Positions 8,792 through 30,495 of a stretch of 32,576 nt of DNA are shown here, one piece after another; the first letter of the stretch is position 1; every line of letters starts with the position of its first letter. The DNA is taken from IMG/VR virus record IMGVR_UViG_3300012920_006502, positions 1 to 32,576 of that record; one strand, written 5' to 3'. Below the pieces are notes generated by a model. That model was not told the origin of the DNA. It made no database searches and saw only the letters and a list, made by a program, of their open reading frames with translations. The stretch comes from a virus. A program made the translations under genes and the position numbers.

Positions 8792-9142
8792 ATGACACAT
8801 GTAGTTGACGACAAATGTATTAATTGTAAACACACAACCTGTGTCAGTGTTTGCCCTGTTGATTGTTTTTATGAAGGAGAAAACATGTTAGTGATCAATC
8901 CTGATGAGTGTATAGATTGCGGCGTGTGTGTTCCTGAATGTCCTGAAGACGCTATATGGCAAACTGATGACGAAGAAAATAAATGGTATAAACACAATCT
9001 ATATTTTAGTACAGATGGTAACTTTCCAAGTATTACAGAAGAACAACAGCCTATGGATAACTATGTAGAGTATGCTAAAGAAAATTACAAAGAAGATAAA
9101 ACAAAATTATTTAAAGCAATCCCAGCAATACAGGTAGATTAA
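8792..9142 (+). CDS. seven-iron [3Fe-4S][4Fe-4S] ferredoxin
   Basis: A 116-residue low-potential electron carrier of the FdxA / Azotobacter FdI type. Cys9, Cys12, Cys17, Cys21 and Cys25 (first motif, ending CPVDCFYEG) and Cys40, Cys43, Cys46 and Cys50 ([16 protein letters not shown]) keep the FdI spacing exactly, shifted by one residue. FdI uses C8, C16 and C49 for the 3Fe cluster and C20, C39, C42 and C45 for the 4Fe cluster; the matching residues are all present. A C-terminal tail follows, as in bacterial FdxA. No strong ribosome site is visible, and the start lies one base after the preceding stop, so coupling is likely. SufE, three genes on, and HemC upstream suggest a redox or Fe-S function. 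Known phage ferredoxins I recall are mainly the 2Fe-2S plant type. Confidence 0.88.
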
Positions 9143-9145
9143 ATT

Positions 9146-9445
9146 ATGACAGGTATAGTTTTTTGGATAGGATTTACAGTAATGGTATTAAACGAAGGTT
9201 TCGTTATAATGCGTCATGTACACCCTTGGTTTGCACAAAAACGTGAAGCACTAATGGCCAAGTATGGTAGTAATTGGAAGCGTTTTCATGCTTTCTTTGA
9301 TTATGTATGGATCGGTGGTGTTATATTAGGCGTAGCAATAGATATTTCTAACTGGAAGTTCTACGCCACAGTTCTTGCAACCTTTTGGAGTATAGTCGCA
9401 GTATTTGTATACTTGCCATTACTCGTAAAGAAAATTAGGAAATGA
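9146..9445 (+). CDS. small multi-pass membrane protein
   Basis: A 99-residue protein with three predicted membrane helices: VFWIGFTVMVLNEGFVIM (5-22), YVWIGGVILGVAIDI (about 53-67), and FYATVLATFWSIVAVFVYLP (about 72-91). The loop between helices one and two is basic and His/Trp-rich (RHVHPWFAQKREALM, then NWKRFHAFF). The C-terminus is KKIRK. Its position between the ferredoxin and SufE suggests a role tied to electron transfer or iron, perhaps a membrane partner of the ferredoxin, but no family or heme-ligand pair can be asserted. The end overlaps the SufE start by 4 bases. Confidence 0.65.
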   Translation: MTGIVFWIGFTVMVLNEGFVIMRHVHPWFAQKREALMAKYGSNWKRFHAFFDYVWIGGVILGVAIDISNWKFYATVLATFWSIVAVFVYLPLLVKKIRK

Positions 9446-9834
9446 AACTAGATAAGTGGTCGGAAGATTTAAACTTACTAGAAGGCACAGATAGATTAGC
9501 ATATCTAGTGGACCTTGCAAAAAAAGCAACTTCATTACCTAAAGAACTTAGAACTGATGATAGACTTATAGGAGGATGTATAAGTCAGATATGGGTAGAC
9601 GTGGGCGTTGTTGAAGGCAACGTTCAAGTTTATTATGATAGTGATGCGATGATAACAAAAGGCATCACCAGTATAGTAGCAGATTGTTTTTCAGACATAC
9701 CTGTTGCAGAAGCAAAACAAATTACATTCCAAGACTTTGAAAAACTTAATATCCAACAATTATTAACACCGCAACGCAGAAATGGATTAGGAAACCTTAT
9801 AGAAACTATTAGACAGAAAATACACTGTCTTTAA
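9442..9834 (+). CDS. sufE: SufE-like sulfur-transfer protein
   Basis: A 130-residue SufE/CsdE family protein (E. coli SufE 138). SufE accepts persulfide sulfur from the cysteine desulfurase SufS and passes it to the SufBCD scaffold during Fe-S cluster assembly. The acceptor loop is RLIGGCISQIWVDV, with Cys46 at the position of SufE Cys51 (PGCQSQVW type). The C-terminal helix region LLTPQRRNGLGNLIETI matches the LSPSRxNGLxxM signature, and the expected fold elements are present at full length. No suf scaffold or desulfurase is in the window, so it must act with host SufS. It is the last gene of the operon. The pairing with a phage ferredoxin suggests the phage supports cluster assembly during infection. 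Confidence 0.85.
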   Translation: MKLDKWSEDLNLLEGTDRLAYLVDLAKKATSLPKELRTDDRLIGGCISQIWVDVGVVEGNVQVYYDSDAMITKGITSIVADCFSDIPVAEAKQITFQDFEKLNIQQLLTPQRRNGLGNLIETIRQKIHCL

Positions 9835-12522: not shown

Positions 12523-12662
12523 GCAAAGTTTGCCAAAACTGCGGAAGAGAACACGAAGGCAGATTAATAGAGACATTTATGGACGGAGATAACAAACCCT
12601 TAGAAATAGTTGTTTGTACCTATCCACGTTACCAAGAGGAAAACGATGAACAAAGTAATTAA
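12519..12662 (+). CDS. 47-residue zinc-ribbon-like protein
   Basis: A short ORF filling the gap between the endolysin and the acyl-carrier-like gene. Its ATG overlaps the endolysin stop (ATGA), and its 3' end overlaps the next gene by 17 bases. The protein begins MSKVCQNCGREHEGRLIETF and continues with MDGDNKPLEIVVCTYPRYQ. The CxxC pair at residues 5 and 8, His12 and Cys33 could form a small zinc site. Tight coupling on both sides and sensible composition argue it is real, although it is short. Function is unknown. Confidence 0.6.
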   Translation: MSKVCQNCGREHEGRLIETFMDGDNKPLEIVVCTYPRYQEENDEQSN

Positions 12663-12861
12663 AGCAATATCAGATCACTTAGGTATTGATGAATCTAAAG
12701 TTGTACCAACAGCACATTTAATAGATGATTTAGGTGCTGACGACTTTGATATCGTTGAACTTACAATTGCTATACAAGAAGCAACAGGTAAAAGCATTTC
12801 AAGCGAAGACGAAGCCAACGTTCAAACTGTTGGAGATTTTATTAAACTGGTAGAAGCATAA
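12646..12861 (+). CDS. acyl-carrier-protein-like protein lacking the carrier serine
   Basis: A 71-residue four-helix acyl-carrier fold. The alignment by eye with AcpP is clear: HLGIDESKVVPTAHLIDDLG (11-30), then ADDFDIVELTIAIQEA (31-46), then SISSEDEANVQTVGDFIKLV. The AcpP prosthetic-group motif is GADSLD; here it is GADDFD, so residue 33 is Asp and 4'-phosphopantetheine cannot be attached at the normal site. The remaining helix II contact residues (D-x-VEL) are kept, so it could still bind ACP partners such as AcpS, IscS, SpoT-type or acyl-transfer enzymes. The ATG follows AAGAGGA; an upstream TTG at 12610 is unlikely. It lies within the lysis region. Confidence 0.8.
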   Translation: MNKVIKAISDHLGIDESKVVPTAHLIDDLGADDFDIVELTIAIQEATGKSISSEDEANVQTVGDFIKLVEA

Positions 12862-14349: not shown

Positions 14350-15192
14350 ATGGACTATTATTCAACACTAGGCGTAAGCAGAAATGCAAGCCAAGAAGAA
14401 ATAAAAAAGGCTTATAAAAAACAGTCTATGGCCCACCATCCAGATCGTACAGGTGGCAACGATACCAAATTTAAAGAAATAAACGAAGCATACCAAACAC
14501 TTAACGATCCTCAAAAGAAACAAATGTATGATCAGTTTGGAACTACTGATCCTAATCAGCGTAGATACAATTCACAAAATTTTGAATTCAATTTTAACGG
14601 ATCTCCATTTAGTGGCGGAATGGACGACATATTCGAATCATTTTTTGGCGGAAGAGGGCAATCTAGAAGAGCAGCCAATCGACCAATAAATGTCGCTGTT
14701 GATGTTTCACTAGAAGATGTTTTGCACGGTAAAACTATAGGCATGGAAATACAACTTCCTACAGGCAGGACAAAAGTTGTAACAGTTGACATACCAAAAG
14801 GTGTAGAACACGGACAAACAGTAAGATACAGAGGTATGGGAGAACAAAATATACCAAATGTACCTCCAGGTGATTTAAATGTGCAAATACGCATTCGGAA
14901 TCACAATAGGTTCCAACGCTACGGAGATAATATACTATGTGAAGTAAAAGTTGATGTATGGGATCTAATGTTAGGTTCAAAAGCAAAAGTTATCACGTTA
15001 GATAATAGAAGCATTGAAATTAATATACCCTCAGGCACACAACCTGATACTTTACTAAGTTGTAAAGGAGAAGGATTACCTAATATTAATACAAAAATTA
15101 GAGGTAATTTGCAAATAAGAATAAAAGCAAATATACCTAGATATACCGAACACCAAAAAAATATATTAAGAAACACAAAAAATGGAATATAA
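14350..15192 (+). CDS. DnaJ/CbpA-type J-domain co-chaperone
   Basis: A 280-residue Hsp40. The J domain occupies residues 1-66, with HPD at 30-32 in AHHPDRTGGND, the motif that stimulates the ATPase of host DnaK. A Gly/Phe region (about 77-102, NFEFNFNGSPFSGGMDD, IFESFFGG) follows. The C-terminal client-binding beta domains contain GVEHGQTVRYRGMGEQ and SIEINIPSGTQPDTLLSCKG. The CxxCxGxG zinc-finger repeats of DnaJ are absent, so it is CbpA-like (class B). No phage DnaK is in the window, so it would redirect the host chaperone. AAGGAGGA precedes the ATG. The end overlaps the deformylase gene by 11 bases. Confidence 0.9.
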   Translation: MDYYSTLGVSRNASQEEIKKAYKKQSMAHHPDRTGGNDTKFKEINEAYQTLNDPQKKQMYDQFGTTDPNQRRYNSQNFEFNFNGSPFSGGMDDIFESFFGGRGQSRRAANRPINVAVDVSLEDVLHGKTIGMEIQLPTGRTKVVTVDIPKGVEHGQTVRYRGMGEQNIPNVPPGDLNVQIRIRNHNRFQRYGDNILCEVKVDVWDLMLGSKAKVITLDNRSIEINIPSGTQPDTLLSCKGEGLPNINTKIRGNLQIRIKANIPRYTEHQKNILRNTKNGI

Positions 15193-15715
15193 ATTAGACA
15201 TAGATTATAAGTTAGGCTTACACGAAGCACTTAACCAGCAAAGTGATGTGTGGGAATTCGGCAAAGAAAAATACGACCCAGAAAAATTAGAATGGGATAT
15301 GTGTAATTTTATGATTCATAATAAAGGAATTGGCCTTGCTGCTAATCAAATAGATTTAACAAAAAGAGTTTTTGTAATGGGCAGCAATGATATTCCAAAT
15401 TTTCCTAAACCATTTGCGTTGTTTAATCCAACAATACTAGAAGCCAGCAAAGAACTTGTGTTAGATACAGAAGGATGTTTAAGTTACCCTGGCTTACTTA
15501 TAAAAGTATCAAGACCTGCATGGATTGTAGGACAATGGCAAAATTCAAAAGGGGAAACTAAGGAAGGAAAAATACAAGGTTATCTTGCAAAATGTTTTCA
15601 ACATGAGTTTGATCACCTAAATGGCATTTGTTTTGTTGACAGAGTGAGTCGGTTGAAGTTACAATTAGCATTAAAGAAATTAAAAAAGTTAAGGAAAAAA
15701 TTAAAAAATGATTGA
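15182..15715 (+). CDS. def: peptide deformylase
   Basis: A 177-residue PDF that removes the N-formyl group from nascent proteins using a bound Fe/Zn. All three family motifs are present: GIGLAANQI (about 49-57), EGCLS (97-101, Cys ligand), and QHEFDHLNG (about 140-148) with the two His ligands and catalytic Glu142. After the active site comes a Lys-rich C-terminal helix (LKLQLALKKLKKLRKKLKND), longer and more basic than in short phage PDFs and possibly a ribosome-binding helix like that of bacterial PDF. It overlaps both neighbours (11 and 8 bases), so it is co-expressed with the J-protein and ClpA. Confidence 0.92.
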   Translation: MEYKLDIDYKLGLHEALNQQSDVWEFGKEKYDPEKLEWDMCNFMIHNKGIGLAANQIDLTKRVFVMGSNDIPNFPKPFALFNPTILEASKELVLDTEGCLSYPGLLIKVSRPAWIVGQWQNSKGETKEGKIQGYLAKCFQHEFDHLNGICFVDRVSRLKLQLALKKLKKLRKKLKND

Positions 15716-18050
15716 GCCAAGCAAGCAATTACAAAATATATTTGATAAGTCTGTAGAGATTACTAAAAGTTATAAGCATAGATTGATTACACTAGAGCAT
15801 TTAATTTTTGCAATTGTTTCTGACGAAGAATCAGCCGCTGGCCTTAAGGCATTTGGAGCAGATGTAGATTATATTAAATCTAATTTAGATCACTATTTGA
15901 AAAATAATCTTAAAGATATTATTGCTGACCAACAAAATCTACTGCCAAAAAAGACCAACAGTGTTGAAAGAGTGCTTAATAGATGCTTTACACAGGTTTT
16001 GTTTAGTGGCAGAAATCAAATGGAAATTGCTGATGTTATAGTAAGCGTATTATCTGAGAAGAATAGTTTTGCTTTTTACTTTTTAACAAAAGGTGGAATA
16101 ACTAAAGAGAAATTTGTACAGCATTTCCAAAAACATTTTATAGAAGAAGATGAGTTTTTTGAAAACGAAAGCGGATCAGGTCCTTTAACAAACGATCAAC
16201 TTGACAAAATTATAAATCAATTTTGTGATAATTTATCTTTAAAAGCAAAACAAAAAAGAATAGATCCTGTAATTGGAAGAGATATTGAACTGGAAGATAT
16301 TGCGTTAGTTTTAGCACGTAGAACAAAATCAAATGTATTAATGGTAGGTGATCCAGGTGTTGGTAAAACTGCTATTGCTGAGGGGTTAGCACGTAAGATT
16401 CATGAAAAGAAAGTTCCTAAATTTATTCAAGATCACACAGTATATAATTTAGATATAGGTTCTTTAGTTGCTGGTTCTAAATACAGAGGAGACTTTGAAG
16501 AAAGAATCAAAGCAGTATTAAGTGCATTAGAAAGAAAAGGAAATATTATACTGTTCATAGACGAAGCTCATATGATGTCTGGTGCAGGAACTGCTAGTCA
16601 AAGTTCAAACGACTTAGCAAACATGTTAAAGCCTGTACTTGGAAAAGGCGGAATGAAAGTAATTGCTTCTACTACTTGGGAAGAATACAGAAAATACTTT
16701 GAAAAAGATCGTGCTTTAATGCGTAGATTCCAGCGTGTAACTGTTGATGAGCCTACACAAGAAACCACTATTAAAATTATAAAAGGATTAAAAAAATATT
16801 ATGAACAATATCATAATGTTGGTATTACAAATGAAGCAATAGAACAAGCAGTTAAATTGTCTATTAAATATATGTCAGATAAAAAACTTCCTGACAAAGC
16901 AATTGATATTATAGACTGTGCATCTGCTAGATATAAGTTGCATGATGATCCTGTTGAAGAAGGTATACAACAGATAGTAGATGTTGAACAGGTGACTTAT
17001 GAATTATCTAAAATGATAAAAATGCCTTTAGAAACAGTAGCACAGAAAGAAAGTAAAAATTTACAAAATCTTGAACCTGCTATGAAGTCTGCAATATTTG
17101 GGCAAGATGATGCAGTTGATAAATTACTAGATAAAATCTTTGTTGCACAGGCTGGCTTAAAATCTCCAGATAAGCCTATTGGTTCATTTTTATTCTTAGG
17201 GCCAACTGGCTGTGGTAAAACAGAAACAGCAAAACAACTTGCTGATAAAATGGGAATGACACTTATTAGATTTGATATGAGTGAATATCAAGAGAAACAT
17301 AGTGTAGCCAGATTGATAGGTGCACCTCCAGGATATGTAGGCTATGAAGAAAATGCAGGACAACTAATTACAAAATTACAAGAAACACCTAATTCAATAC
17401 TGTTGCTTGACGAGATAGAAAAAGCACACCAAGACGTTTCTAATATATTGTTACAATTTATGGATAACGGTTTTGTTACTGGATCAAACGGTAAACAAGC
17501 AGATGGAAGAAACACAATACTAATAATGACTAGTAACTTAGGTGCTGCAGACAATGAAAATAACACTATTGGGTTTGACGATCTAGAAAAGTATGATGAG
17601 GACGAGAAAGCAGTAAAAAACTTTTTTGCACCAGAATTTAGAAATAGGCTAGATGCTACAGTAAAATTTGGCAAACTATCGCAAACAGTTGTTAAAGAAA
17701 TTGTATCTAAATTTGTAAGTGAGCTAAACGCACAAGTTAAAGATAAAAATATAACTATTAAGGCAGATGCTGAAACTGTATCATGGCTCGCTAAGAAAGG
17801 TTATAGTAAAAAAATGGGTGCAAGGCCACTTGGAAGATTAATTGACACTGAAATAAAAACTCCACTTAGTAAAAAGGTACTGTTTGGTGATTTAGCAGAT
17901 GGTGGTATAGTTAACATCAATATAGTAGATGACAAGCCTACATTTACAATTACACCTGCTCCTAAGCCCATGACTAAAGCAGAACGTAAAGCAGCAAAAG
18001 CAGCAGCAAGAAAATCTGAAAATGAAACTGCCGACAGCCAAGAAAACTAA
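15708..18050 (+). CDS. clpA: ClpA-type AAA+ unfoldase
   Basis: A 780-residue Hsp100 protein. An N-domain-like region covers about 1-150. D1 has Walker A GDPGVGKT (about 214) and Walker B ILFIDEAHMM (about 281). D2 has Walker A GPTGCGKT (about 498) and Walker B ILLLDEIEKA (about 565). The long middle domain of ClpB is absent. IGF (about residue 621, in NNTIGFDDLEKY) sits where ClpA carries the IGL/IGF loop that docks on ClpP, just before FFAPEFRNRLDA. It can therefore be expected to feed substrates to host ClpP; no clpP or clpS is in the window. The last 30 residues are an Ala/Lys-rich tail (KAERKAAKAAARKS). The end overlaps the next gene by 29 bases. Confidence 0.9.
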   Translation: MIEPSKQLQNIFDKSVEITKSYKHRLITLEHLIFAIVSDEESAAGLKAFGADVDYIKSNLDHYLKNNLKDIIADQQNLLPKKTNSVERVLNRCFTQVLFSGRNQMEIADVIVSVLSEKNSFAFYFLTKGGITKEKFVQHFQKHFIEEDEFFENESGSGPLTNDQLDKIINQFCDNLSLKAKQKRIDPVIGRDIELEDIALVLARRTKSNVLMVGDPGVGKTAIAEGLARKIHEKKVPKFIQDHTVYNLDIGSLVAGSKYRGDFEERIKAVLSALERKGNIILFIDEAHMMSGAGTASQSSNDLANMLKPVLGKGGMKVIASTTWEEYRKYFEKDRALMRRFQRVTVDEPTQETTIKIIKGLKKYYEQYHNVGITNEAIEQAVKLSIKYMSDKKLPDKAIDIIDCASARYKLHDDPVEEGIQQIVDVEQVTYELSKMIKMPLETVAQKESKNLQNLEPAMKSAIFGQDDAVDKLLDKIFVAQAGLKSPDKPIGSFLFLGPTGCGKTETAKQLADKMGMTLIRFDMSEYQEKHSVARLIGAPPGYVGYEENAGQLITKLQETPNSILLLDEIEKAHQDVSNILLQFMDNGFVTGSNGKQADGRNTILIMTSNLGAADNENNTIGFDDLEKYDEDEKAVKNFFAPEFRNRLDATVKFGKLSQTVVKEIVSKFVSELNAQVKDKNITIKADAETVSWLAKKGYSKKMGARPLGRLIDTEIKTPLSKKVLFGDLADGGIVNINIVDDKPTFTITPAPKPMTKAERKAAKAAARKSENETADSQEN

Positions 18051-18709: not shown

Positions 18710-19081
18710 ATGATCAATGGAACTAATATACTTTTACAAGACATAGATACTACTTCATCTTCAGCACAGTATAGTGATAAGAAGATAGGTGCTGGCTATT
18801 ATAAGAATAGTGACGGTGTTCATACGTTATATACTGTTGTTAATGCATTTTTAGGCAGCATAACAATACAAGGAACACTAGAGCAATATCCAAGTGATGA
18901 CGACACAGATTGGGTAGATGTAAACACTTTTGCTGGTGATAGTACATATTACAACCAGCCTAATAACAACGATGCTGTTGATTATGACGTTTCTAGCACA
19001 TTCACTGGCAAGTTTGTATGGGTAAGAGCAAAATACGAACTGCAAAATGGTACAATTCGCGAAGTTCGCTATAACTATTAA
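18710..19081 (+). CDS. small late protein, probably structural
   Basis: A 123-residue protein with a beta-rich, Asn/Asp/Tyr/Thr-rich composition: MINGTNILLQDIDTTSSSAQ, GAGYYKNSDGVHTLYTVV, GSITIQGTLEQYPSDDDTDW and FVWVRAKYELQNGTIREVRY. This resembles small phage decoration or tail proteins with a jelly-roll-like fold. The WV(R/D)V and alternating strand pattern supports all-beta structure. No Met, GTG or TTG occurs in frame near the start, so translation must begin at 18710, directly at the late promoter box. The virion role is inferred from control and composition. Confidence 0.6.
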   Translation: MINGTNILLQDIDTTSSSAQYSDKKIGAGYYKNSDGVHTLYTVVNAFLGSITIQGTLEQYPSDDDTDWVDVNTFAGDSTYYNQPNNNDAVDYDVSSTFTGKFVWVRAKYELQNGTIREVRYNY

Positions 19082-19130: not shown

Positions 19131-20204
19131 ATGCGAGATCTATTGGACAAACTTAATATGTTAGAAGGCTTTATGCCAGAACATATGGAAGGTGAAGTGG
19201 AATTTGAATTTACTGGAGATGACGGTGAAACGCAAATGGGAACTTTACACTACAAAGCAGAAATTAAACAAAGCGATGAACACGGTTACTATGCTGAAGT
19301 TGACCCTAAGTCACTAAAAGGCGAATGTGAACCAGACGGAAACGCTAAAGTAGATGATGACTTAGCAACATACACTGTGCAGCCAGGTGAAACAGATCAC
19401 GAAGCAGCAATGGAAGCAGCATTTGAAGATGCTATGGATGAAATCAAAAATGCAGATAACAAATACTCGCATGGTGAAAGCATTGATGATTCCGACACAC
19501 AAACTGAAGATGAAATTAAACCTGGACAGGGTGCATTAGATAAATTTAGAGAATTATATAGAAAAGGTATTGGCTCAGATGATGACGAATTTGTCTTGAG
19601 AGAGTTAATTGCAAAAATTAATGACGATGCTTTATTCGCAGATGAATTCACACAACTTAGACAATTTACTGATCCAGGACCGCATGGCCCTGATGAAGTA
19701 CTCTACGCAAAAAATGTTCCTGGTGATACTGCTGATGAAAAAATTGAAACACTTATAAAAACAATTGATGATGATGGGTGGGTAGAAAGTTTTGCACAAT
19801 ACTTAATGTATGATTTAAAAATGGATGAAAACGCAGAATTTAATAGAATTAAAGAACTATCTGGAGTGGATACTAACGAAGAAGATGAACAAACATTTGA
19901 AGGTGATGAGTTCTATGAATATTATGGATACTTACCATGGCACGAAGATCTGCCAATAGACGAAGCAGAATACAGAGGACGTAAAGTTTCTTTAGGCAAA
20001 CCAATGCGTGGTGATGTAAAGAAGTTTAAAGTATTTGTACGTGATCCAAAAACAAAGAACATTAAAAAAGTAAACTTTGGAGATCCTAATATGCGTATTA
20101 AGAAATCTAATCCAAAGCGTAGAAAGTCATTTAGAGCTAGACACAATTGTGATAACCCAGGTCCTAGAACAAAAGCTCGTTATTGGTCATGCAGGAAGTG
20201 GTAG
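19131..20204 (+). CDS. acidic late protein with conserved basic Cys-containing C-terminus
   Basis: A 357-residue protein. Residues 1-290 are strongly acidic (for example FEFTGDDGETQMGTLHYKAE, EDAMDEIKNADN, GVDTNEEDEQTFEGDEFYEY). The last 60 are strongly basic: KVFVRDPKTKNIKKVNFGDP, then RIKKSNPKRRKSFRARHNCD and a TKARYWSCRKW end. I recognise the FGDPNM..KRRKSFRARHNC..YWSC segment as a recurrent C-terminal module of late proteins in marine phages; its activity is not known to me. The N-terminus MRDLLDKLNMLEG may be a variant capsid-targeting peptide ending in a cleavable LEG. It may be a prohead core or scaffold-like component. Confidence 0.65.
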   Translation: MRDLLDKLNMLEGFMPEHMEGEVEFEFTGDDGETQMGTLHYKAEIKQSDEHGYYAEVDPKSLKGECEPDGNAKVDDDLATYTVQPGETDHEAAMEAAFEDAMDEIKNADNKYSHGESIDDSDTQTEDEIKPGQGALDKFRELYRKGIGSDDDEFVLRELIAKINDDALFADEFTQLRQFTDPGPHGPDEVLYAKNVPGDTADEKIETLIKTIDDDGWVESFAQYLMYDLKMDENAEFNRIKELSGVDTNEEDEQTFEGDEFYEYYGYLPWHEDLPIDEAEYRGRKVSLGKPMRGDVKKFKVFVRDPKTKNIKKVNFGDPNMRIKKSNPKRRKSFRARHNCDNPGPRTKARYWSCRKW

Positions 20205-20540
20205 ATGAGACTCAACGAATTATTTTCCCCAATAGGCGCACCTGAAGAAAACCAGGATATTAACTGGTTAGAAGATTTAAAATTCTTTATGGATAACGAT
20301 AATGAAGTTACATCTAATGTAATGTTCCCTGCAATTAAAAAACACAAAAAATATGCAGGTCATCCTGACGCATACAAAATATATATTAAACCAATACAAC
20401 GATGTAAAGAAATGTATTGTACAAAATACAATATAGAAGATAGTGGAAATAAATTTACAAAAGAAACACTAATCAATATGGCTAGAAAAATTGCCAGTGA
20501 ACAAGAACGGTTTATAGAGCGTGGCGATTATGAAGATTAG
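20205..20540 (+). CDS. predicted packaged internal head protein
   Basis: A 111-residue protein starting directly after the preceding stop. The N-terminus MRLNELFSP matches the capsid-targeting-like pattern shared by the genes at 20530 and 24220. The body is INWLEDLKFFMDNDNEV, then MFPAIKKHKKYAGHPDAYK and IYIKPIQRCKEMYCTKYNIE, a conserved-looking small phage domain with two Cys. It ends ERFIERGDYED and overlaps the nucleotidyltransferase gene by 11 bases. No function is known. Packaging in the head is inferred from the N-terminus and from late expression. Confidence 0.6.
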   Translation: MRLNELFSPIGAPEENQDINWLEDLKFFMDNDNEVTSNVMFPAIKKHKKYAGHPDAYKIYIKPIQRCKEMYCTKYNIEDSGNKFTKETLINMARKIASEQERFIERGDYED

Positions 20541-21156
20541 AGAATTATTTGAAGATGATACAGATAAGCATGTAACCTTTTGCTTCGGAAGGTTTAACCC
20601 TCCTACTCTAGGACACAAAGAAGTTTTTAAAACAATGGCTGCACAAGGCGGCGATATGAAAATTTTTACTACACAATCACAAGATTCTAAAAAGAATCCT
20701 TTAGATTACTCTACTAAAATAGATTTTATAAGAAAAATACATCCTGACTATGCAGAAAAATTAATTGAAGACACAAAGTTAAACACGATTACTAAAGTTG
20801 CTGAATACCTAAACGAACAAAATTATTCACATGCAACTTTTGTAGGAGGCGATGATAGAAAAAACTTGTATGATAGTTTGGTAGCATACAATGGAAAAAC
20901 AGAAGGAAAGAAAGGACCTTTAGAAATTCAGTACAAATTTGAAACACTAGAATTTGTTAGCGCAGGCGCAAGAGAAGACGGTGCTGACGGTGTTGAAGGA
21001 ATAAGCGGAACACAAGCAAGAGAAGATGCTGCTGAAAATAATTTACAGGCATTTACAAAACATACTGGTGCAGGTGAGCATGCAGAAGAACTTTTTAATG
21101 CTGTAAGAAAAGGAATGGGATTATCAGATGAAAAACCAAAAGACGATCAAGAGTAG
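20530..21156 (+). CDS. HIGH-family nucleotidyltransferase with capsid-targeting-like N-terminus
   Basis: A 208-residue protein. I chose ATG 20530 over GTG 20521 because it yields the N-terminus MKIRELFEDDTDKH, close to T4 Alt (MELITELFDEDTT as I recall it). The catalytic domain follows: FCFGRFNPPTLGHKEVFK (about 17-34), with T-x-G-H in place of H-x-G-H. ATFVGGDDRKNLYD follows, and the second nucleotide motif is GISGTQAREDAAENN (about 161-175, ISxTxxR form). This motif pair is found in NMN adenylyltransferases and cytidylyltransferases; the substrate is uncertain. If packaged, it would enter the host with the DNA. Confidence 0.75.
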   Translation: MKIRELFEDDTDKHVTFCFGRFNPPTLGHKEVFKTMAAQGGDMKIFTTQSQDSKKNPLDYSTKIDFIRKIHPDYAEKLIEDTKLNTITKVAEYLNEQNYSHATFVGGDDRKNLYDSLVAYNGKTEGKKGPLEIQYKFETLEFVSAGAREDGADGVEGISGTQAREDAAENNLQAFTKHTGAGEHAEELFNAVRKGMGLSDEKPKDDQE

Positions 21157-22168
21157 AGATCCGAATTGGAGAGACATGGAAGCATTACGTAAGAGTGGCG
21201 CAGCAGGTTCGCATCGTGATAAGAAAAAAGAAATGAAATTAGGTAAAGTCAAACACAAGGGGAAAACAATGGACGAATCTATCTATACAAATCCAGCAGG
21301 AGGTGAACTTTCTAAAATTGGAAGAATCCTAATGGATAAATCAGTCACAGTCAAAGATGATGCACTATCTAATGTGCTAGGTCGTGTTGGTGATGAACTT
21401 ACACGTTATGGTGATCCAGGAGGTGCAACTTCGATCGATGAACTTTGTAAGAAGGCAAGATGTACAAAAGAACAACTTATGAAAATGATGAAGTGGGCAC
21501 AACAGCAAAATGATGTTTTAGATAAAGTGAAAGACCCAGATCCTAAACCAGACGATGAAGATGATGATGATAAAAAAGAATCTATGGCATCTGAAACTTC
21601 TATAGGACACGTAGATGACGAACGTCATATGATTCGTAAAGAATTATACCAAGCAGCAAAATATGCTAAAGAACTTTTTGAAATGCTAGAAGACTTACCC
21701 GAAGACAGTGATTTCCCCCACTGGTGGCAGTCTAAAGTTACAAAAAGTTTACAGATGTTAAGCAAAGCAAAACACTACTTAGAGAACGAACTAGCAGTTC
21801 CAGATCAAAACACAGATGAATCAGGTATTATGTACAAAGCCGGAGTAAAAAAGTACGGCAAAGACGGAATGCAAAAGATTCAAAGTGCTGCTGGTAAAGG
21901 TGCAAGTGCTGAAGAAATTGGTGCTATCAAAGATAAGCACAACAAGAAAAAAACAGAATCAGTTGCACCCGTAAGTAAAGCATTGCTAGAATCTGTTGGC
22001 AAAGAAATTACAGAAGAAGAGTTTGATACGTTAGCAGAAAAACAAGATGCTTGTTATCACAAAGTAAAGTCAAGATATAAAGTTTGGCCAAGTGCATACG
22101 CAAGTGGTGCATTGGTACAGTGCCGTAAGAAAGGTGCTAAGAACTGGGGCAACAAGAGTAAAAAGTAA
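21128..22168 (+). CDS. modular Lys/Cys-rich late protein
   Basis: A 346-residue protein overlapping the nucleotidyltransferase gene by 29 bases. Segments in order: a basic DPNWRDMEALRKSGAAGSHR...KLGKVKHKGK stretch (about 9-46), a helical middle with an acidic PDPKPDDEDDDDKKES linker (about 137-152), a helical domain (MIRKELYQAAKYAKELFEML), and a C-terminal module CYHKVKSRYKVWPSAYASG followed by LVQCRKKGAKNWGNKSKK. I know that last module from phage and large eukaryotic-virus proteins; its function is unclear. A second possible start, ATG 21269 behind AAGGGGA, would give a shorter protein beginning MDESIYTNPAGG. Confidence 0.6.
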   Translation: MKNQKTIKSRDPNWRDMEALRKSGAAGSHRDKKKEMKLGKVKHKGKTMDESIYTNPAGGELSKIGRILMDKSVTVKDDALSNVLGRVGDELTRYGDPGGATSIDELCKKARCTKEQLMKMMKWAQQQNDVLDKVKDPDPKPDDEDDDDKKESMASETSIGHVDDERHMIRKELYQAAKYAKELFEMLEDLPEDSDFPHWWQSKVTKSLQMLSKAKHYLENELAVPDQNTDESGIMYKAGVKKYGKDGMQKIQSAAGKGASAEEIGAIKDKHNKKKTESVAPVSKALLESVGKEITEEEFDTLAEKQDACYHKVKSRYKVWPSAYASGALVQCRKKGAKNWGNKSKK

Positions 22169-22561
22169 ATGCGTATAAGTGAAATTGTAGAAGGCACACG
22201 TTGCTGGAAAGGATATGAAAAGAAAGGGATGAAGACTATGTTTGGCAAGAGAGTGCCAAACTGTGTTAAACGTGAGTCTGTTGATTTTTGTATTAATTGC
22301 AATGAACTTATATTTGATGAAACAGTAACTGAAGACCTACGCAAATGGTTTAAAGATAAATGGGTGCGTATGGGTCCAAAGGGAAAAATCAGAGGTTCTT
22401 GTGGAGGCAAATCAAAAGGCGAAGGTAAGCCTAAATGTTTGCCAGCAAAGAAAGCATATGCACTAGGCAAAAAAGGTAGAGCCAAAGCAGCAAGAAGAAA
22501 ACGTAGAGAAGATCCTAATCCTAATAGACGCGGTAAAGCGAAGAATGTTAAGACAAAATGA
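22169..22561 (+). CDS. small basic Cys-rich late protein (predicted packaged)
   Basis: A 130-residue, very basic protein. The N-terminus MRISEIVEGTRCWKGYEKKG contains a possible prohead-protease site IVE/G. Next come CINCNELIF, then EDLRKWFKDKWVRMGPKGK and CGGKSKGEGKPKCLPAKKAY, with a repeated-Arg tail (KAARRKRREDPNPNRRGK). The RKWFKDKWV...KGEGKPKC.PAKKA core recurs in marine phage proteins and may be a DUF6321-type domain, from memory. Six Cys suggest metal binding. It fits a DNA-condensing internal protein; that is inference. Confidence 0.6.
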   Translation: MRISEIVEGTRCWKGYEKKGMKTMFGKRVPNCVKRESVDFCINCNELIFDETVTEDLRKWFKDKWVRMGPKGKIRGSCGGKSKGEGKPKCLPAKKAYALGKKGRAKAARRKRREDPNPNRRGKAKNVKTK

Positions 22562-22758
22562 CACTAGAAGAATTAAAAAGGTTAGCAGGTATCTACGAAC
22601 GTCATGGTTGGAAAGCATATGACGGACCAAACTTGTCTATTACAGGAACTGAGAAGCAGTACTTAGAAAAGAAACATGACATCCAACCAGGAACTCCTGA
22701 ATGGTTTAAGTTATGGTTTTCATTACCTAAGTTAACAGGCGAGAAACCAGTAGAATGA
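22558..22758 (+). CDS. small protein, function unknown
   Basis: A 66-residue protein linked to both neighbours by 4-base ATGA overlaps. It begins MTLEELKRLAGIYERHGWKA and continues GTEKQYLEKKHDIQPGTPEW, then FKLWFSLPKLTGEKPVE. The LEELKRLAGI opening is a motif seen at the N-termini or cleavage regions of small phage virion proteins. No Cys or membrane segment is present. Tight coupling suggests it belongs to the same virion-associated set. Confidence 0.6.
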   Translation: MTLEELKRLAGIYERHGWKAYDGPNLSITGTEKQYLEKKHDIQPGTPEWFKLWFSLPKLTGEKPVE

Positions 22759-23909
22759 GAGCGCATCAATTCATATCAGAAAAAGCAGTCAGCAAAAAAC
22801 AACAGCAATTTTTTGGCATTGTAAGAGCAATGCAGAAAGGCGATATGAAAAAGAGTGGTGAAGCAGGTGAAGTTGCTAAGGATATTTCAAAAGCAGATGC
22901 AAAAGATTTTGCTAAAACAAAACACAAAGGATTACCGACAAAGAAAACATCTGAAGAAGCAGCAGGTGTTGGTATTGTTACAAAACAAAATGCTACCGCA
23001 GACGTTCCTGTAGGTGGTGAATATATGAATGTTAAAAAACTGTTTCCTAAGAAAAAGAAAAAGAAAACATATGAAGATATGTTTAAAGGGCTAAATCCAA
23101 AGTCAGAAATATATGTTGACATGGATGGAGTTCTAGCAGACTTCTTCGGCGAATGGAAAAAACTAGTTGGTAAAGATTGGCGCGAACTAGACAAAGACGA
23201 GATTGAACCTGCATTAAAAAAAATTAGAGACGAGGATAAATTTTGGTTAAACATTCCTCTAACATCAAACGCAAAGAACCTACTTGGTATTATCAAACAA
23301 GTTAAAGGCGACTACAAGATTCTAAGTTCTCCACTAGCAAATGATCCTAATTCGGAACCACATAAGCGTGAGTGGATTGAAAAGAACCTAGACTTCTTTC
23401 CACCAACTGAAGTCATCATAACTAAGGATAAGGCGAAGTATGCAACCAACCCCGACGGCACACCTAATATCCTTATTGACGATTATGGTGTTAACATAGC
23501 AGCGTGGGAAAGTGCCGGAGGCATAGGGTTCAAGCATAAGGATCATAAATTTGAAAGAACTGCTAAAAAACTTAAAGCAGAAATAGAAGAAAGTTTTCAA
23601 CATCTGATAAGAGAATATATAGAAGAAGGTTGGAGTGCAAAATACAAAAAAAGTATTAATTGCTCTAATCCAAAAGGATTTAGTCAAAAAGCACATTGCG
23701 CAGGACGCAAGAAAAATGAAGACATTGAAGAAAATTTTGCTGACGGTAAAAAGAAAGGCAAAAGTAGACCAGGGCGTGTAAAACGTTCAGGTGCTAGTTG
23801 TAACGGGTCCGTTACATCATTACGTAAAAAAGCAAAGAACGCATCAGGTGAGCGTGCAAAGATGTACCACTGGTGTGCTAATATGAAAAGCGGGAAGAAA
23901 AAGAAATAA
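22755..23909 (+). CDS. fusion protein: DUF3008-like, HAD nucleotidase, basic Cys modules
   Basis: A 384-residue modular protein. Residues 1-10 are MRAHQFISEK, resembling the T4 internal-protein leader (MKTYQEFIxE). Residues 12-65 (VSKKQQQFFGIVRAMQKGDM, then KDFAKTKHKGLP) match a small phage domain I recall as DUF3008. A Lys-rich linker (KKLFPKKKKKK) follows. Residues about 117-265 are a HAD-fold domain like 5'(3')-deoxyribonucleotidases: IYVDMDGVLADFFGEW with Asp122 and Asp124, KILSSPLAN, and NILIDDYGVNIAAWE with Asp242 and Asp243. The C-terminus holds two Cys modules, WSAKYKKSINCSNPKGFSQK and ASGERAKMYHWCANMKSG. Such a nucleotidase could dephosphorylate dNMPs; the fusion to packaging-like modules is unusual. 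Confidence 0.75.
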   Translation: MRAHQFISEKAVSKKQQQFFGIVRAMQKGDMKKSGEAGEVAKDISKADAKDFAKTKHKGLPTKKTSEEAAGVGIVTKQNATADVPVGGEYMNVKKLFPKKKKKKTYEDMFKGLNPKSEIYVDMDGVLADFFGEWKKLVGKDWRELDKDEIEPALKKIRDEDKFWLNIPLTSNAKNLLGIIKQVKGDYKILSSPLANDPNSEPHKREWIEKNLDFFPPTEVIITKDKAKYATNPDGTPNILIDDYGVNIAAWESAGGIGFKHKDHKFERTAKKLKAEIEESFQHLIREYIEEGWSAKYKKSINCSNPKGFSQKAHCAGRKKNEDIEENFADGKKKGKSRPGRVKRSGASCNGSVTSLRKKAKNASGERAKMYHWCANMKSGKKKK

Positions 23910-24109
23910 TGTTTAGTAAGCAATGTAAACTACACCTAGAGAAAGTAGGTGAAACTGGCCTACAGCATATGGTTAAAGCACTTAAGACTGCTGTTAAACT
24001 GCAATGTTTGGTGCCAGCATTAATTATACACAGTGTTGCTCCAAGATTCTTTACAAATACAGCATCACATGTAATGAAGGATATATTAGATGGAAGAGAT
24101 AGACATTAA
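23909..24109 (+). CDS. small conserved phage protein
   Basis: A 66-residue protein sharing one base with the preceding stop (TAATG). The sequence MFSKQCKLHLEKVGETGLQH, then MVKALKTAVKLQCLVPALII and HSVAPRFFTNTASHVMKDIL, matches a small family I recall from marine phages (DUF6356, from memory). The central AVKLQCLVPALIIHSVAP is moderately hydrophobic and may be a membrane-associating helix. Two Cys are present. Function is unknown. Its end overlaps the short ORF at 24090 by 20 bases. Confidence 0.65.
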   Translation: MFSKQCKLHLEKVGETGLQHMVKALKTAVKLQCLVPALIIHSVAPRFFTNTASHVMKDILDGRDRH

Positions 24110-24215
24110 GCATTATGTTGCTAAAATTAAGGAACACGATGAAAAACGTCTTAGTTTTAATGAGCGTATGGCTTATTGGAAAAGGTATCTAGAGGAACGT
24201 CAACAGGATAAATAG
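24090..24215 (+). CDS. 41-residue helical protein
   Basis: A short ORF filling the gap between the genes at 23909 and 24220. AAGGA (about 24077-24081) lies at good distance from its ATG, which overlaps the previous gene by 20 bases. The protein is MEEIDIKHYVAKIKEHDEKR followed by LSFNERMAYWKRYLEERQQD and a final K, a charged amphipathic helix. Its stop TAG overlaps the late box at 24207. Good ribosome site, gap-filling position and composition support it. Function is unknown. Confidence 0.6.
   Translation: MEEIDIKHYVAKIKEHDEKRLSFNERMAYWKRYLEERQQDK
24207..24214 (+). promoter_or_regulatory. late promoter box GATAAATA with almost no leader
   Basis: An exact GATAAATA. The following ATG (24220) is 6 bases after the box end, near the predicted transcription start. 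Only a weak AGG lies upstream, 12 bases away and inside the promoter. The upstream gene's stop codon overlaps the box end. Confidence 0.65.
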
Positions 24216-24219
24216 TATT

Positions 24220-24657
24220 ATGAGACTTAAAGAATTATTTGTAGAAGATAGTAGAACATCTATCACTAAAGATAAAGAAGATTATATAGCAAAGCGTAAA
24301 GCATTGCAGGATATCCAGTTGGATCCTGAAACACACAAAAGCGAAAAGTTAAAGAAAGAGCTTATGCGCAGAAAGTTTGAATTAGAGAAAGAAGCAGGTG
24401 AAAAAGGATATAAAAGCGAATCAGCAACAGCAGGTGCTACATCATCAGGAAACATTGCTAGTGTTGAAGCACCGCATTTAAGTCCAGGTAAAGCACGTGG
24501 TAAAAAGTCATATACAGGCAGTCCTTGGGGCGGTAAGTCGGGCACAAAAGCACCACCTCAACCAACAGTAAAACAACCTAAAAAAGGCGACGGAACAGCA
24601 GTAAACGCACTAGATATGAAAAATAGCATATTTGGAGAGAACCCGGTAAGAAGATAA
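24220..24657 (+). CDS. predicted packaged internal head protein
   Basis: A 145-residue protein beginning MRLKELFVEDSRTSIT, nearly the same leader as the genes at 20205 (MRLNELFSP) and 20530 (MKIRELFEDD). The middle is a long charged helix (RKALQDIQLDPETHKSEKLK, KKELMRRKFELEKEAG). The C-terminal half is Gly/Ser/Pro/Lys-rich and probably disordered: ATAGATSSGNIASVEAPHL, SPGKARGKKSYTGSPWGGK. It ends SIFGENPVRR. The layout of leader, helix and basic disordered tail is what T4-type internal proteins look like. The stop TAA is part of the next late promoter. Confidence 0.65.
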   Translation: MRLKELFVEDSRTSITKDKEDYIAKRKALQDIQLDPETHKSEKLKKELMRRKFELEKEAGEKGYKSESATAGATSSGNIASVEAPHLSPGKARGKKSYTGSPWGGKSGTKAPPQPTVKQPKKGDGTAVNALDMKNSIFGENPVRR

Positions 24658-24660
24658 ATA
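24653..24660 (+). promoter_or_regulatory. T4-type late promoter box GATAAATA
   Basis: An exact GATAAATA followed by C, with TAA (24655-24657) serving as the stop codon of the preceding gene. The ATG at 24684 is 24 bases downstream, with AGAGGAA between, so this transcript has a normal leader. Confidence 0.75.
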
Positions 24661-24683
24661 CTTACTATAAAGAGGAAACTACT

Positions 24684-25736
24684 ATGGACTTTAGAAAAAT
24701 TATAACAAAAATGCACGAACTAGATCCTACTACGCCAGGTCAAGATCTACAGCATTTCACACAACTGGCGGAATCAACAGGTATTGCGCTAGGTGCTAAA
24801 GAAGTAGTTACTGAAGCAGCAAAACCAGATTACATTGACATCGATGGCGACGGTGACAAGAAAGAGCCTATGAAGAAGGCTGTAAAAGATAAAAAAGATA
24901 AGAAAGAAAAAGTAAAAGAAGCAGCAGAAGGTAAAATGCCATCTAAAAAAGAAGTAATGAAATGTTGCAAAGATGGAATGAGCGTTGCTGAAATTTGCAA
25001 AAAATATCCAGATTGCGATCAGAAAAAATTAAAAGAGATGTGCAAAGACTGCAAAGAAGAAATGAAAGAGTCTGTTAACGAAGCAGAACAAATTATCAAA
25101 GCAGAAAAGAAAGCAAAAATGCCTAGCAAGAAAAGCATCTTAATGATGTGCAGCAAAGGTATGAGTGTCAAAGAAATGTGTGAAGCACATCCAGACTGCG
25201 ATCAAAAGAAACTTAAAGAAATGTGCGAAGCATGCATGGAAGAATACAAAGCAAAGAAAAACGAATCAGTTAGTTTTGTAGACATGGATGGCGAAATTGT
25301 TGAAGCAAAAAGTGCTGCGCAAAAGAAAGCACAAGAAAAGTTTAAGAACATGGTAAAAGGCAAAAAGTCCGATGATAAAGAAATGGACGAAGGTGCCTAT
25401 GGTAAAAAGAAAAAACCAGTTAAAGAATCTGTAGAAACTAAAATGTCATTCGTTGACATGTATAAGATAGTTAAAGAAAGTGGTGGACAGCAAGCCATTG
25501 ATCCTATGGACGATGTGTTATGGACATGGGCAAACAGAGTTGCTGTAACAAAAGTTGAAGAGACTAATAAACAAGAAATCTTCGCTGCTATGCTTTATGA
25601 AAGAAACGGCGGACGTTTTGAAATGTATGACGTTGTGGAAAAAGGCTTAACAGAAGGCAAAGACTGCAACTGTGGTCCAGATTGTGCTTGCAAAGGTAAT
25701 TGCGAACCAAACTGTAACTGCGGTCCAGAATGTTAA
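24684..25736 (+). CDS. late protein with duplicated Cys domain and metallothionein-like tail
   Basis: A 350-residue Lys/Glu-rich protein. A DIDGDGDKKEPMKKA segment (about 52-66) looks like a dockerin or EF-hand-type Ca-binding loop. A 61-residue unit is duplicated: MPSKKEVMKCCKDGMSVAEI (from Met85) and MPSKKSILMMCSKGMSVKEM (from Met146), each followed by a P-D-C-D-Q-K-K-L-K-E-M-C stretch. Two further short segments share SFVDM (about 195 and 255). Residues 327-350 hold eight Cys in 24 residues, in CNCGPDCAC, then CEPNCNCGPEC, as in metallothioneins. It probably binds metal. AGAGGAA and a late promoter precede the ATG, and a strong terminator follows. The role is unknown; a packaged metal-binding protein is possible. 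Confidence 0.7.
   Translation: MDFRKIITKMHELDPTTPGQDLQHFTQLAESTGIALGAKEVVTEAAKPDYIDIDGDGDKKEPMKKAVKDKKDKKEKVKEAAEGKMPSKKEVMKCCKDGMSVAEICKKYPDCDQKKLKEMCKDCKEEMKESVNEAEQIIKAEKKAKMPSKKSILMMCSKGMSVKEMCEAHPDCDQKKLKEMCEACMEEYKAKKNESVSFVDMDGEIVEAKSAAQKKAQEKFKNMVKGKKSDDKEMDEGAYGKKKKPVKESVETKMSFVDMYKIVKESGGQQAIDPMDDVLWTWANRVAVTKVEETNKQEIFAAMLYERNGGRFEMYDVVEKGLTEGKDCNCGPDCACKGNCEPNCNCGPEC
24933..25259 (+). repeat. internal tandem duplication, period 61 codons
   Basis: Two copies of a roughly 48-residue helical Cys unit start at about 24933 and 25116, 183 bases apart. Shared residues include K-M-P-S-K-K, G-M-S-V, and D-C-D-Q-K-K-L-K-E-M-C. The copies differ at many codons, so the duplication is old and under protein-level selection. 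Confidence 0.75.
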
Positions 25737-27831: not shown

Positions 27832-30495
27832 ATGAGCTACGTAGATGCATTCTATGATCGTAATGAAGATATAATACGTGTTGTAGAAAGAAAAAATAAC
27901 AAAAGACATTTTACAGAATATTCCCCAAGACACGTTTTTTATTACAAAGACCCAAGAGGCAAACATCAATCTATTTACGGTGACCAGTTACAACGTGTTA
28001 CTGCAAAGAACATAAAAGAACTTCGCAAAGAACTTGCAATTCATTCCAATAAAAAATTATACGAAAGCGATATAAATCCAATTTATCGTTGTTTAGAAGA
28101 CAACTATTTAAATGTTGATGCTCCTAAACTTAATATAGCGTTTTGGGATATTGAGGTTGACTTTGATCCCGAGCGTGGCTATGCAAGTCCAGAAGATGCG
28201 TTTATGCCTATTACATCAATTGCTGTACACTTGCAGTGGATGGATGAACTAATTTGTTTAGCAATTCCGCCTAAAACATTATCAATGGCAGAAGCGAAAA
28301 AAGCAATTGATGGCATTCCAAATACTATACTTTATGACAATGAAGCGGATATGCTTGATGCCTTTTTAGATCTTATTCAAGATGCTGATGTACTAAGTGG
28401 TTGGAACAGTGAAGGTTATGATATGCCTTATACTGTAAACAGAATTACAAAAGTTTTAAGCAAAGAAGATACTAGACGTTTGTGTCTATGGGATCAATAT
28501 CCTAAGAAAAGAACATATGAAAAGTTTGGTAAAGAATCTCAAACATATGATTTAGTTGGCCGTGTGCATGTAGACAGTTTAGAACTTTATAGAAAATACA
28601 ACTATGAAGAACGTCATACATATCGACTTGATGCTATTGGTGAACTAGAAGTAGGTGAAAAGAAAACTGTTTATGAAGGCAGCCTAGATGCTCTTTACAA
28701 CAATGATTTCAGAACATTTATTGAATACAACAGGCAAGATACTGCACTACTTAATAAACTTGATAAGAAACTAAAGTTTATTGATCTTGCAAATACTATT
28801 GCACATGAAAATACTGTGCTTATACAAACAACAATGGGTGCTGTTGCTGTTACAGAACAAGGTATTATTAACGAAGCACATAGACGTGGAATGATTGTTC
28901 CGAACAGAGTGAAACGTGAGCCAGGTAGTGAGCCAGCGGCAGGTGCATATGTTGCATATCCTAAGAAAGGAATTCACGAATGGATTGGTAGTGTTGACTT
29001 GAATTCACTATATCCATCTGTTATTAGAGCATTGAACATGGGTCCAGAAACTGTAGTAGGTCAACTTAGACAGGATGGAACTAAAGCACATATTGATTCA
29101 CAAATGGCAAAAGGTAAAAGTTTTGCTAGTGCGTGGGAAGGTATGTTTGGATCAGTTGAATATAGTTCAGTTATGGAAAAAGAAATTAGTAGAGAGATTA
29201 CTGTTGACTGGGAAAATGGTGACAGTGATAAACTAAGTGCTGCACAGATATATGATCTAATCTATGAAAGCAATCAACCATGGATGCTTAGTGCTAACGG
29301 CACAATCTTTACGTATGAAAAAGAAGGTATTATTCCTGGACTACTTGCACGTTGGTATAAAGAACGTAAAGAAATGCAGGCAAAGCAGAAAGAAAGTCAA
29401 AATGCAGGAAACAAGATTGAAGAAGAATACTGGGCAAAGCGTCAGTTGGTTAAAAAGATTCTACTCAATAGTTTGTATGGTGCTATTCTTAATCCTGGTT
29501 GTAGGTTTTTCGACAACAGGATTGGTCAAAGTGTTACACTTACAGGACGTAGCATTACCAAACATATGGCTGCTAAGATCAATGAGATAGTAACAGGAGA
29601 ATATGATCATACAGGCAAAGCAATTGTATATGGTGATACAGATTCAACATACTTTAGTGCATACAGTACACTTAAAAAAGATATAGAATCTGGTAGTATT
29701 CCGTGGACAAAAGACAGTGTAGTTGAACTGTATGACACAATTGGTGAAAATGCAAACGCAACATTTGGTAAGTTTATGAGTTCAGCATTTCATTGTCCTA
29801 AGAAGCGTTCAGAGGTAATTGCTGCTGCTAGAGAAATTGTTGCAAGTAAAGGCTTGTTTATAACAAAGAAACGCTATGCAGTGCTTTATTATGATATTGA
29901 AGGTTTTAGAACAGACACAGAAGGCAAAGCAGGTAAAATTAAAGCAATGGGTCTTGATCTTAAACGTTCTGATACTCCGGTTGTAATACAAGACTTCTTA
30001 AGCAATGTATTAGAAAAGGTGCTATCTGGTAAAGAAAAAGAAGAAGTACTTGATTATATTACAGAATTTAGAACAGAGTTCAAAGCACGTCCTGGATGGG
30101 AAAAAGGCTCTCCTAAACGTGCAAACAAAATTACAGAATATGAAGCCAAAGAAAAGAAAGCAGGCAAAGCAAATATGCCTGGACACGTAAGAGCAAGTAT
30201 TAATTGGAATACACTTAAACGTATGAACGGTGACAAATATTCTGTAAACATTACAGACGGTGCAAAAGTAATTGTTTGTAAAGTAAAAGACAATCCAATG
30301 GGATATACAAGTGTAGCGTATCCGGTAGATGAACTAAGACTTCCGGATTGGTTTAAAGAGTTGCCTTTCGATGATGCTACAATGGAAAACACAGTAATCG
30401 ATGAAAAACTTAAAAACTTAATTGGCGTTTTGGAATGGGACATAAGTCAAACTAGAAATGACAATAACTTTAACAGTTTATTTGATTTTGAGTAA
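27832..30495 (+). CDS. 43: family-B DNA polymerase (gp43)
   Basis: An 887-residue replicative polymerase with 3'-5' exonuclease (T4 gp43 is 898). Exo I is FWDIEVDFD (Asp106, Glu108), Exo II GWNSEGYDMPY (about 199-209), and Exo III YNRQDTALL (about 300-308). The palm has motif A SVDLNSLYPSVIRAL (about 387-401), motif B KKILLNSLYGAILN (about 541-554), and motif C YGDTDSTYF (from Tyr600). The C-terminus ends NFNSLFDFE, like the T4 clamp-binding tail (SLDFLF-type). It appears full-length and active. GGAGAA precedes the ATG. It is followed by gp45; in T4 the order is 43-regA-62-44-45, so the replication cluster is rearranged here, with no regA-like gene between. Confidence 0.95.
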   Translation: MSYVDAFYDRNEDIIRVVERKNNKRHFTEYSPRHVFYYKDPRGKHQSIYGDQLQRVTAKNIKELRKELAIHSNKKLYESDINPIYRCLEDNYLNVDAPKLNIAFWDIEVDFDPERGYASPEDAFMPITSIAVHLQWMDELICLAIPPKTLSMAEAKKAIDGIPNTILYDNEADMLDAFLDLIQDADVLSGWNSEGYDMPYTVNRITKVLSKEDTRRLCLWDQYPKKRTYEKFGKESQTYDLVGRVHVDSLELYRKYNYEERHTYRLDAIGELEVGEKKTVYEGSLDALYNNDFRTFIEYNRQDTALLNKLDKKLKFIDLANTIAHENTVLIQTTMGAVAVTEQGIINEAHRRGMIVPNRVKREPGSEPAAGAYVAYPKKGIHEWIGSVDLNSLYPSVIRALNMGPETVVGQLRQDGTKAHIDSQMAKGKSFASAWEGMFGSVEYSSVMEKEISREITVDWENGDSDKLSAAQIYDLIYESNQPWMLSANGTIFTYEKEGIIPGLLARWYKERKEMQAKQKESQNAGNKIEEEYWAKRQLVKKILLNSLYGAILNPGCRFFDNRIGQSVTLTGRSITKHMAAKINEIVTGEYDHTGKAIVYGDTDSTYFSAYSTLKKDIESGSIPWTKDSVVELYDTIGENANATFGKFMSSAFHCPKKRSEVIAAAREIVASKGLFITKKRYAVLYYDIEGFRTDTEGKAGKIKAMGLDLKRSDTPVVIQDFLSNVLEKVLSGKEKEEVLDYITEFRTEFKARPGWEKGSPKRANKITEYEAKEKKAGKANMPGHVRASINWNTLKRMNGDKYSVNITDGAKVIVCKVKDNPMGYTSVAYPVDELRLPDWFKELPFDDATMENTVIDEKLKNLIGVLEWDISQTRNDNNFNSLFDFE

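Follow-up and report, generated by a model that had tools for sequence, protein, structure and literature searches.

Why should proteins with unrelated bodies, encoded side by side on a viral genome, begin with the same short N-terminus? The question is raised by a linear 32.6-kb fragment, from IMG/VR, of a marine virus related to phage T4 (record IMGVR_UViG_3300012920_006502; 32,576 nucleotides, analysed in full and called the window here), in which a cluster of open reading frames (ORFs) is placed between a Clp ATPase gene (15708-18050) and a DNA polymerase gene (27832-30495). Five of these ORFs, named below by their start positions, carry leaders that a first-pass annotation had likened to those of T4 internal head proteins (bit scores as described in the next section):

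20205..20540, + strand: 111-residue protein, leader MRLNELFSP, the weakest of the five (8.9 bits); relatives start MKLNELFSP or MLLKEMFSP
20530..21156, + strand: predicted NMNAT/PPAT-fold nucleotidyltransferase, leader MKIRELFE (20530-20553), with cleavage predicted behind LFE8
22169..22561, + strand: basic 130-residue protein with six Cys, leader MRISEIVE (13.3 bits), CWKGYEKKG and GKIRGSCG..KPKCLP modules
22755..23909, + strand: 384-residue modular protein, leader MRAHQFISE (15.1 bits), DUF3008-like part (residues 11-64), predicted NT5C/HAD nucleotidase (residues 119-260), YKKSINC and SRPGRVK basic modules
24220..24657, + strand: basic 145-residue protein, leader MRLKELFVE (15.1 bits), with SATAGATSSGNIASV at 24421-24465

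The answer that we favour with considerable confidence is that the shared N-terminus is a T4-type capsid-targeting sequence, which would bring unrelated proteins into the prohead core, where a gp21-type protease would then cut the leader off at an L/I-x-E site. The cluster would encode internal head proteins: a nucleotidyltransferase of the adenylyltransferase fold, a nucleotidase of NT5C type fused to small basic modules, several further proteins that are small, basic and modular, and a protein copying the N-terminal arm of the capsid protein. These would remain with the genome after DNA packaging and probably be freed into the host as infection starts; there, the enzymes could work on NAD-type or nucleotide pools ahead of phage gene expression. 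Packaging by the leader is well supported and its cleavage is strongly suggested by the sequences, while head location, injection, substrates and function in the host are what we infer. The targeting system itself is of the T4 type; its enzyme cargo is unusual.

Five leaders and their likeness to T4 head proteins

The N-termini given by the first-pass annotation are present in all five ORFs (MRLNELFSP in 20205, MKIRELFEDD in 20530, MRISEIVEG in 22169, MRAHQFISEK in 22755 and MRLKELFVED in 24220); 20530 begins at the ATG at 20530, and the GTG listed at 20521 is unnecessary. Trained on 179 leaders taken from other contigs, and blind to the window and its nearest relatives, a position matrix scored the five at 16.5, 15.1, 15.1, 13.3 and 8.9 bits and the sixth-best window ORF at -1.5 bits, singling out exactly the five named among 50 ORFs. 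None of the 198 internal Met positions in the window reached 5 bits (best, -0.8), and 0.024% of shuffled N-termini reached at least 8 bits; the match is far above chance. A looser pattern fits 10.8% of N-termini, against 1.0% of internal Met positions and 1.6% of shuffles (2,854 distinct ORFs, 182 loci). Because this pattern was written after the finding was seen and the loci were chosen around the cluster, the held-out matrix and the T4 scan below are the cleaner tests.

A motif search across related genomes, which the annotation had proposed as a check, found the leader again. It is present on 52 of 52 recovered nucleotidyltransferase homologues, 16-20 residues ahead of FGRxNPPTxGH, and the share of ORFs scoring above 6 bits is 1.5-4.6% in five long relatives, against 0.3% in shuffles. 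The relatives' leader genes lie mainly in the equivalent cluster and beside the portal-protease-scaffold-capsid (gp20-gp23) head block. Similar leaders in relatives precede a Fe/Mn superoxide dismutase (L135:9171-9716), a class 3 lipase (L066:4108-4833) and a pterin dehydratase-Cu/Zn superoxide dismutase fusion (L174:13044-14078).

When the marine-trained motif, with shifts allowed, was run over 248 T4 ORFs, gp24, Alt, IPIII, IPII and IPI all fell within the top 14, for which our own arithmetic gives a chance of about 3e-7. These are T4 head proteins with short N-terminal propeptides, cut by gp21 at L/I-x-E (PMC9026906, PMC5694885), and the annotation's comparison with T4 leaders is supported in this respect. 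The top list also includes the likely false positives nrdC.9, vs.6 and gp3; unrelated T4 genes thus rank high too, and single motif matches are not proof. An ungapped motif built from nucleotidyltransferase leaders alone ranked IPII and IPIII 6th-7th and missed Alt and gp24; the broader, shift-allowing motif was used because this one was too narrow.

Four of the five proteins have an L/I-x-E-like site after the leader, as the annotation had it for the set: LFE in 20530, ISE in 22755, IVE in 22169 and the variant FVE in 24220. Among 278 distinct leaders, 213 hold an [LIVMF]-x-E-like triplet whose first residue lies at positions 5-12, compared with 24% once everything beyond position 7 is shuffled, and the commonest residue after the site is Ala. 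A Peptidase S77 (gp21-type protease) is encoded by 6 of 12 long relatives, themselves possibly fragments; none is found on the 32.6-kb window fragment.

The likeness to T4 internal head proteins (Alt, IPI-III and the gp24 propeptide) comprises a short N-terminal leader with an E/Q-L/F-I/L/F core, an L/I-x-E site, a cargo of small basic proteins plus an enzyme, and a gp21-type protease, here in relatives. T4 Alt and many of the IPs are ejected into the host at infection (PMC9026906). However, no resemblance was found between the window's cargo bodies and those of T4, the marine cargo enzymes are of nucleotide type (adenylyltransferase fold, nucleotidase), joined in relatives by superoxide dismutases and a lipase, and many marine proteins are multi-module with repeated cut sites. 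The ejection proteins of phiKZ-type giant phages such as SPN3US are likewise many, propeptide-bearing, packed with the DNA and ejected, but have mostly longer propeptides, S/A-x-E sites and different protein families (PMC5694885, PMC9026906).

Enzymes and modules, and published virion evidence from cyanophages

The annotation described the bodies as mostly basic and Cys-rich. In gene order, the isoelectric points (pI) are 5.5, 5.2, 10.3, 9.6 and 9.7 and the Cys counts 2, 1, 6, 4 and 0; the description is partly right. Its claim of a nucleotidyltransferase and a HAD nucleotidase in the set stands, as both matches are above Pfam cut-offs.

The match of 20530 is to CTP_transf_like PF01467 (3.5e-7). 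It has the catalytic motifs GRFNPPTLGH and ISGTxAR, and the (H/T)xGH and ISxTxxR motifs are kept in a 12-sequence alignment in which M1, F7 and E8 are invariant. The AlphaFold2 model has a pLDDT of 84, with low confidence at leader residues 2-9, as expected for a detachable peptide. Foldseek with this model matches PPAT, NaMNAT and NMNAT about equally (E 2.5e-5 to PPAT), and all NCBIfam matches are below cut-off; the model points to an NMNAT/PPAT-superfamily fold and a predicted enzyme, with NMN, phosphopantetheine and a CTP substrate as candidate substrates. A second window nucleotidyltransferase (7218-7637), of the HldE/glycerol-3-phosphate cytidylyltransferase type, has no leader, and the 121Q homologue begins directly at the domain. 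Sequence searches of the PDB returned no meaningful match for the nucleotidyltransferase or the HAD enzyme.

In 22755, the match to NT5C PF06941 (3.6e-7; 30.7 bits against a cut-off of 24.8) is joined by phrog_2643 (4.8e-24) and a kept DxDx catalytic motif (DMDGVLADFF), which identify the HAD domain as a predicted NT5C-type nucleotidase of the 5'(3')-deoxyribonucleotidase family. The DUF3008 match (0.0097) is below cut-off. The YKKSINC and SRPGRVK basic modules come after L/I-x-E-like sites, and DUF3008, YKKSINC, SRPGRVK, GKIRGxCG and the HAD domain all recur in an order that varies between proteins. Of the distinct contexts of recurrent modules, 65-100% have [LIVM]-x-E just upstream, whereas random positions give 11-24%; the enrichment holds for internal module copies too, with small numbers for some modules. 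This suggests that the modular proteins may be cut into several mature pieces. Two further cluster members bear on what follows:

21128..22168, + strand: modular basic protein with a C-terminal CYHKVKSRYKVWPSAY module and no leader; 74% identity over 53 residues (E 1e-22) to S-CREM2 ORF160
24684..25736, + strand: 350-residue protein with 19 Cys and a KPDYIDIDGDGDKKEPMKKA module; E 7e-7 to the virion protein S-SCSM1_92

Proteins related to 21128 elsewhere, e.g., MKAKEFIIELKK..., have leaders.

The virion evidence is published and comes from cyanophages. Their core protein T4-GC190 ('cytidylyltransferase'/NMNAT) belongs to the same enzyme family as 20530 (33-41% identity) and differs in a longer linker from leader to enzyme domain. 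Sullivan et al. (PMC3037559) found the T4-GC190 'citidylyltransferase' in purified S-SM1 virions, and two other reports place the homologous nucleotidyltransferase in virions of S-SCSM1 (PMC9602691) and S-CREM2 (PMC10665884). All three virion-detected enzymes begin with T4-like leaders, MKKFSAFLNE/A in S-SM1, MKSFLQFLKE/A in S-SCSM1 and MKNFSSFLTE/A in S-CREM2 (a slash marks the site), and blastp of 20530 matches the S-SCSM1 enzyme at 2e-40 and the S-CREM2 enzyme at 1e-26. The accessible text of the three papers discusses neither a targeting leader nor a link between leader and packaging.

Besides 20530, four window proteins match virion-detected cyanophage proteins, namely 21128, 22169, 22755 (its DUF3008 part) and 24684. 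The DUF3008 part of 22755 is 60% identical (1e-15, blastp) to virion protein S-SCSM1_93. Two stretches of 22169 match S-CREM2 ORF160 (2e-9 and 2e-4), of which 21128 matches a different part; seven peptides of ORF160 were found in virions (PMC10665884). Together with the motif transfer to T4 and the gp21-type protease in long relatives, the published virion detection of leader-bearing homologues supports the annotation's capsid-targeting reading of the leader. Separately, leader-bearing proteins at G001:186977-187690 (L201) and L253:14013-14726 are homologous (37%) to the nucleotidyltransferase of pol-beta type that S-CREM2 encodes as ORF156, itself detected in virions.

A capsid-arm copy in 24220 and in T4 gp61.1

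The SATAGATSSGNIASV segment of 24220 copies the stretch of the major capsid protein lying after the protease site in relatives, which reads TRKYLAE/SATAGATSAGNVATLN in long relatives such as G001. Aligned with the relatives' capsid arm, 24220 scores 58, and none of 1000 shuffles scores as high. Many relatives encode a small protein that is barely more than a leader and this capsid-arm segment (MKIKDILE/SATAGATSSGNIATV). When the arm of its own capsid protein was aligned locally against each genome, a single match stood out, beyond 200 of 200 shuffles, in T4, G001, G002, S-SCSM1 and S-CREM2; these included T4 gp61.1 (69, against 39 for the next) and S-SCSM1 ORF97 and S-CREM2 ORF160, both virion proteins. 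The same search gave nothing significant in G003, G006, G007 and the partial S-SM1, so the mimic is not detectable in every genome. Small copies matched to their own lineage lie at:

L182:18966-19130 (T4 gp61.1)
L253:16343-17236
L246:33122-33307

Scored against one another, mimics and arms match at 64-104 within the T4 type, 72-95 within cyanophages and 58-60 within the window clade, compared with 16-41 across lineages; for PX29 and PVA8, whose own capsid arms were not extracted, only the comparison with other T4-type arms is meaningful. Independently, a search with T4 gp23 finds gene 61.1 in four out of six genomes of T4-like phages (E <= 1.8e-4). Among the matches to gp61.1 itself, which use residues 1-42, several GenBank records name 61.1 'major capsid protein'. 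T4 gp61.1 and the cyanophage clusters share the same gp41-gp61 neighbourhood. Like 24220, T4 gp61.1 begins with a leader (MKTFKEFIKE), behind which comes a copy of the N-arm of its own phage's capsid protein; gp61.1 differs in being just 54 residues long and in matching T4 gp23, not the marine capsid protein. The pairing of mimic and capsid protein may reflect shared ancestry or co-evolution, which are indistinguishable on these data, and the candidate roles are shell binding and protease decoy.

Gene neighbourhood, alternatives and implications

The window DNA polymerase is nearest to those of Sinorhizobium phage Phosso (51%) and Agrobacterium jumbo phage Atu_ph07. The window also encodes a clamp loader of T4 type, PhoH and an ATPase of Clp type, in a shared neighbourhood. 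By eye, 18710-19081 looks like the 'DGWYGYSDGLHT' proteins beside the Clp gene in both phages, a likeness by which the neighbourhood looks conserved. In Atu_ph07, a virion-protein cluster (CDS 284-329; PMC6102473) spans the corresponding region, as placed by counting from two named tail-fibre genes; the genes printed there have no leader, and this synteny, being positional, is weak support for packaging. The remaining cluster genes are:

19131..20204, + strand: 357-residue acidic protein, first gene of the cluster, its start MRDLLDKLNMLEG a different leader type; phrog_7595 at its C-terminus (1.8e-11); a G001 protein at the equivalent position (20248-21360) starts MRDLLSKLDSIVNE
22558..22758, + strand: conserved 66-residue protein without a classical leader; in G001 a homologue occupies this place (24472-24687)
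23909-24109: 66-residue DUF6356 protein (1.1e-10)

By eye, the equivalent leader cluster of G001 also encodes an IscA/HesB-like iron-sulphur protein (G001:24680-25006, L193). Elsewhere, the window holds host-type genes for hydroxymethylbilane synthase (hemC, 6488-7225), ferredoxin (8885-9142), SufE (9442-9834), acyl carrier protein (12646-12861) and peptide deformylase (15182-15715).

Several observations weigh against packaging, cleavage and delivery by the leader. On inspection, the N-terminus of 20205 has no clear L/I-x-E site, the part of the annotation's claim that did not stand. The annotation's term 'late genes' is only partly right, as the T4-type late promoter TATAAATA occurs once over the two strands of the window, against five expected by chance; such promoters are absent or different in this window. 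No homologue of the HAD domain is found among the cyanophage virion proteins compared. In S-SCSM1, the leader score (jumbo-trained motif) is not associated with virion and non-virion labels, a test that is uninformative because few cyanophage proteins have leaders, these are differently shaped (MKxFxxFLxE) and most virion proteins are tail parts. Finally, the S-SCSM1 and S-CREM2 authors leave carry-over of abundant proteins possible (PMC9602691, PMC10665884).

It is conceivable, but unlikely, that the leader-bearing proteins belong to the prohead core or scaffold and serve assembly only, the enzymes being expelled, degraded or used in packaging with no delivery to the host. The relatives' gp22 itself begins MLDIVKQLFE, in T4 the core proteins gp22, gp67 and gp68 are largely cleaved to fragments and lost (PMC9026906), and repeated L/I-x-E sites between modules suggest heavy cutting; yet homologues are detected in mature virions, and both enzymes retain their catalytic motifs. 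We regard it as improbable that the enzymes simply work inside the cell as auxiliary metabolic enzymes, with contamination, as raised by the cyanophage authors, behind their virion presence and an unrelated role for the leader, e.g., one in translation or that of a hot spot for recombination. Three window leaders do have GAA TTA TTT in common, but overall the leader is kept at the protein level with varied codons and is tied to the protease site; it is common to T4's processed head proteins and stands on the nucleotidyltransferase in three separate virion proteomes. There is similarly little to favour the leaders sending proteins to the neck or the inner face of the shell instead of the interior filled with DNA: the member that copies the capsid N-arm could bind the shell, whereas the closest known leaders, those of the T4 IPs and Alt, target the core interior (PMC9026906, PMC5694885).

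A capsid-targeting leader of T4 type would explain the 'cytidylyltransferase/NMNAT' and the small unknown proteins repeatedly seen in marine T4-like virion proteomics. The leader and its protease site predict further packaged proteins from sequence alone, including the superoxide dismutases and the lipase in relatives, and whether metabolic enzymes enter the host together with the DNA of marine phages becomes a directly testable question. More tentatively, and with a likelihood somewhat below even, a general capsid address label in T4-superfamily phages may preload a changeable enzyme cargo (the adenylyltransferase-fold enzyme, the nucleotidase, superoxide dismutases and a lipase) acting on the host at time zero, and this cargo may include a capsid-arm mimic tracking the capsid protein across lineages. 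T4 gp61.1, so far an unexplained protein, would be among these mimics and gains a testable role.

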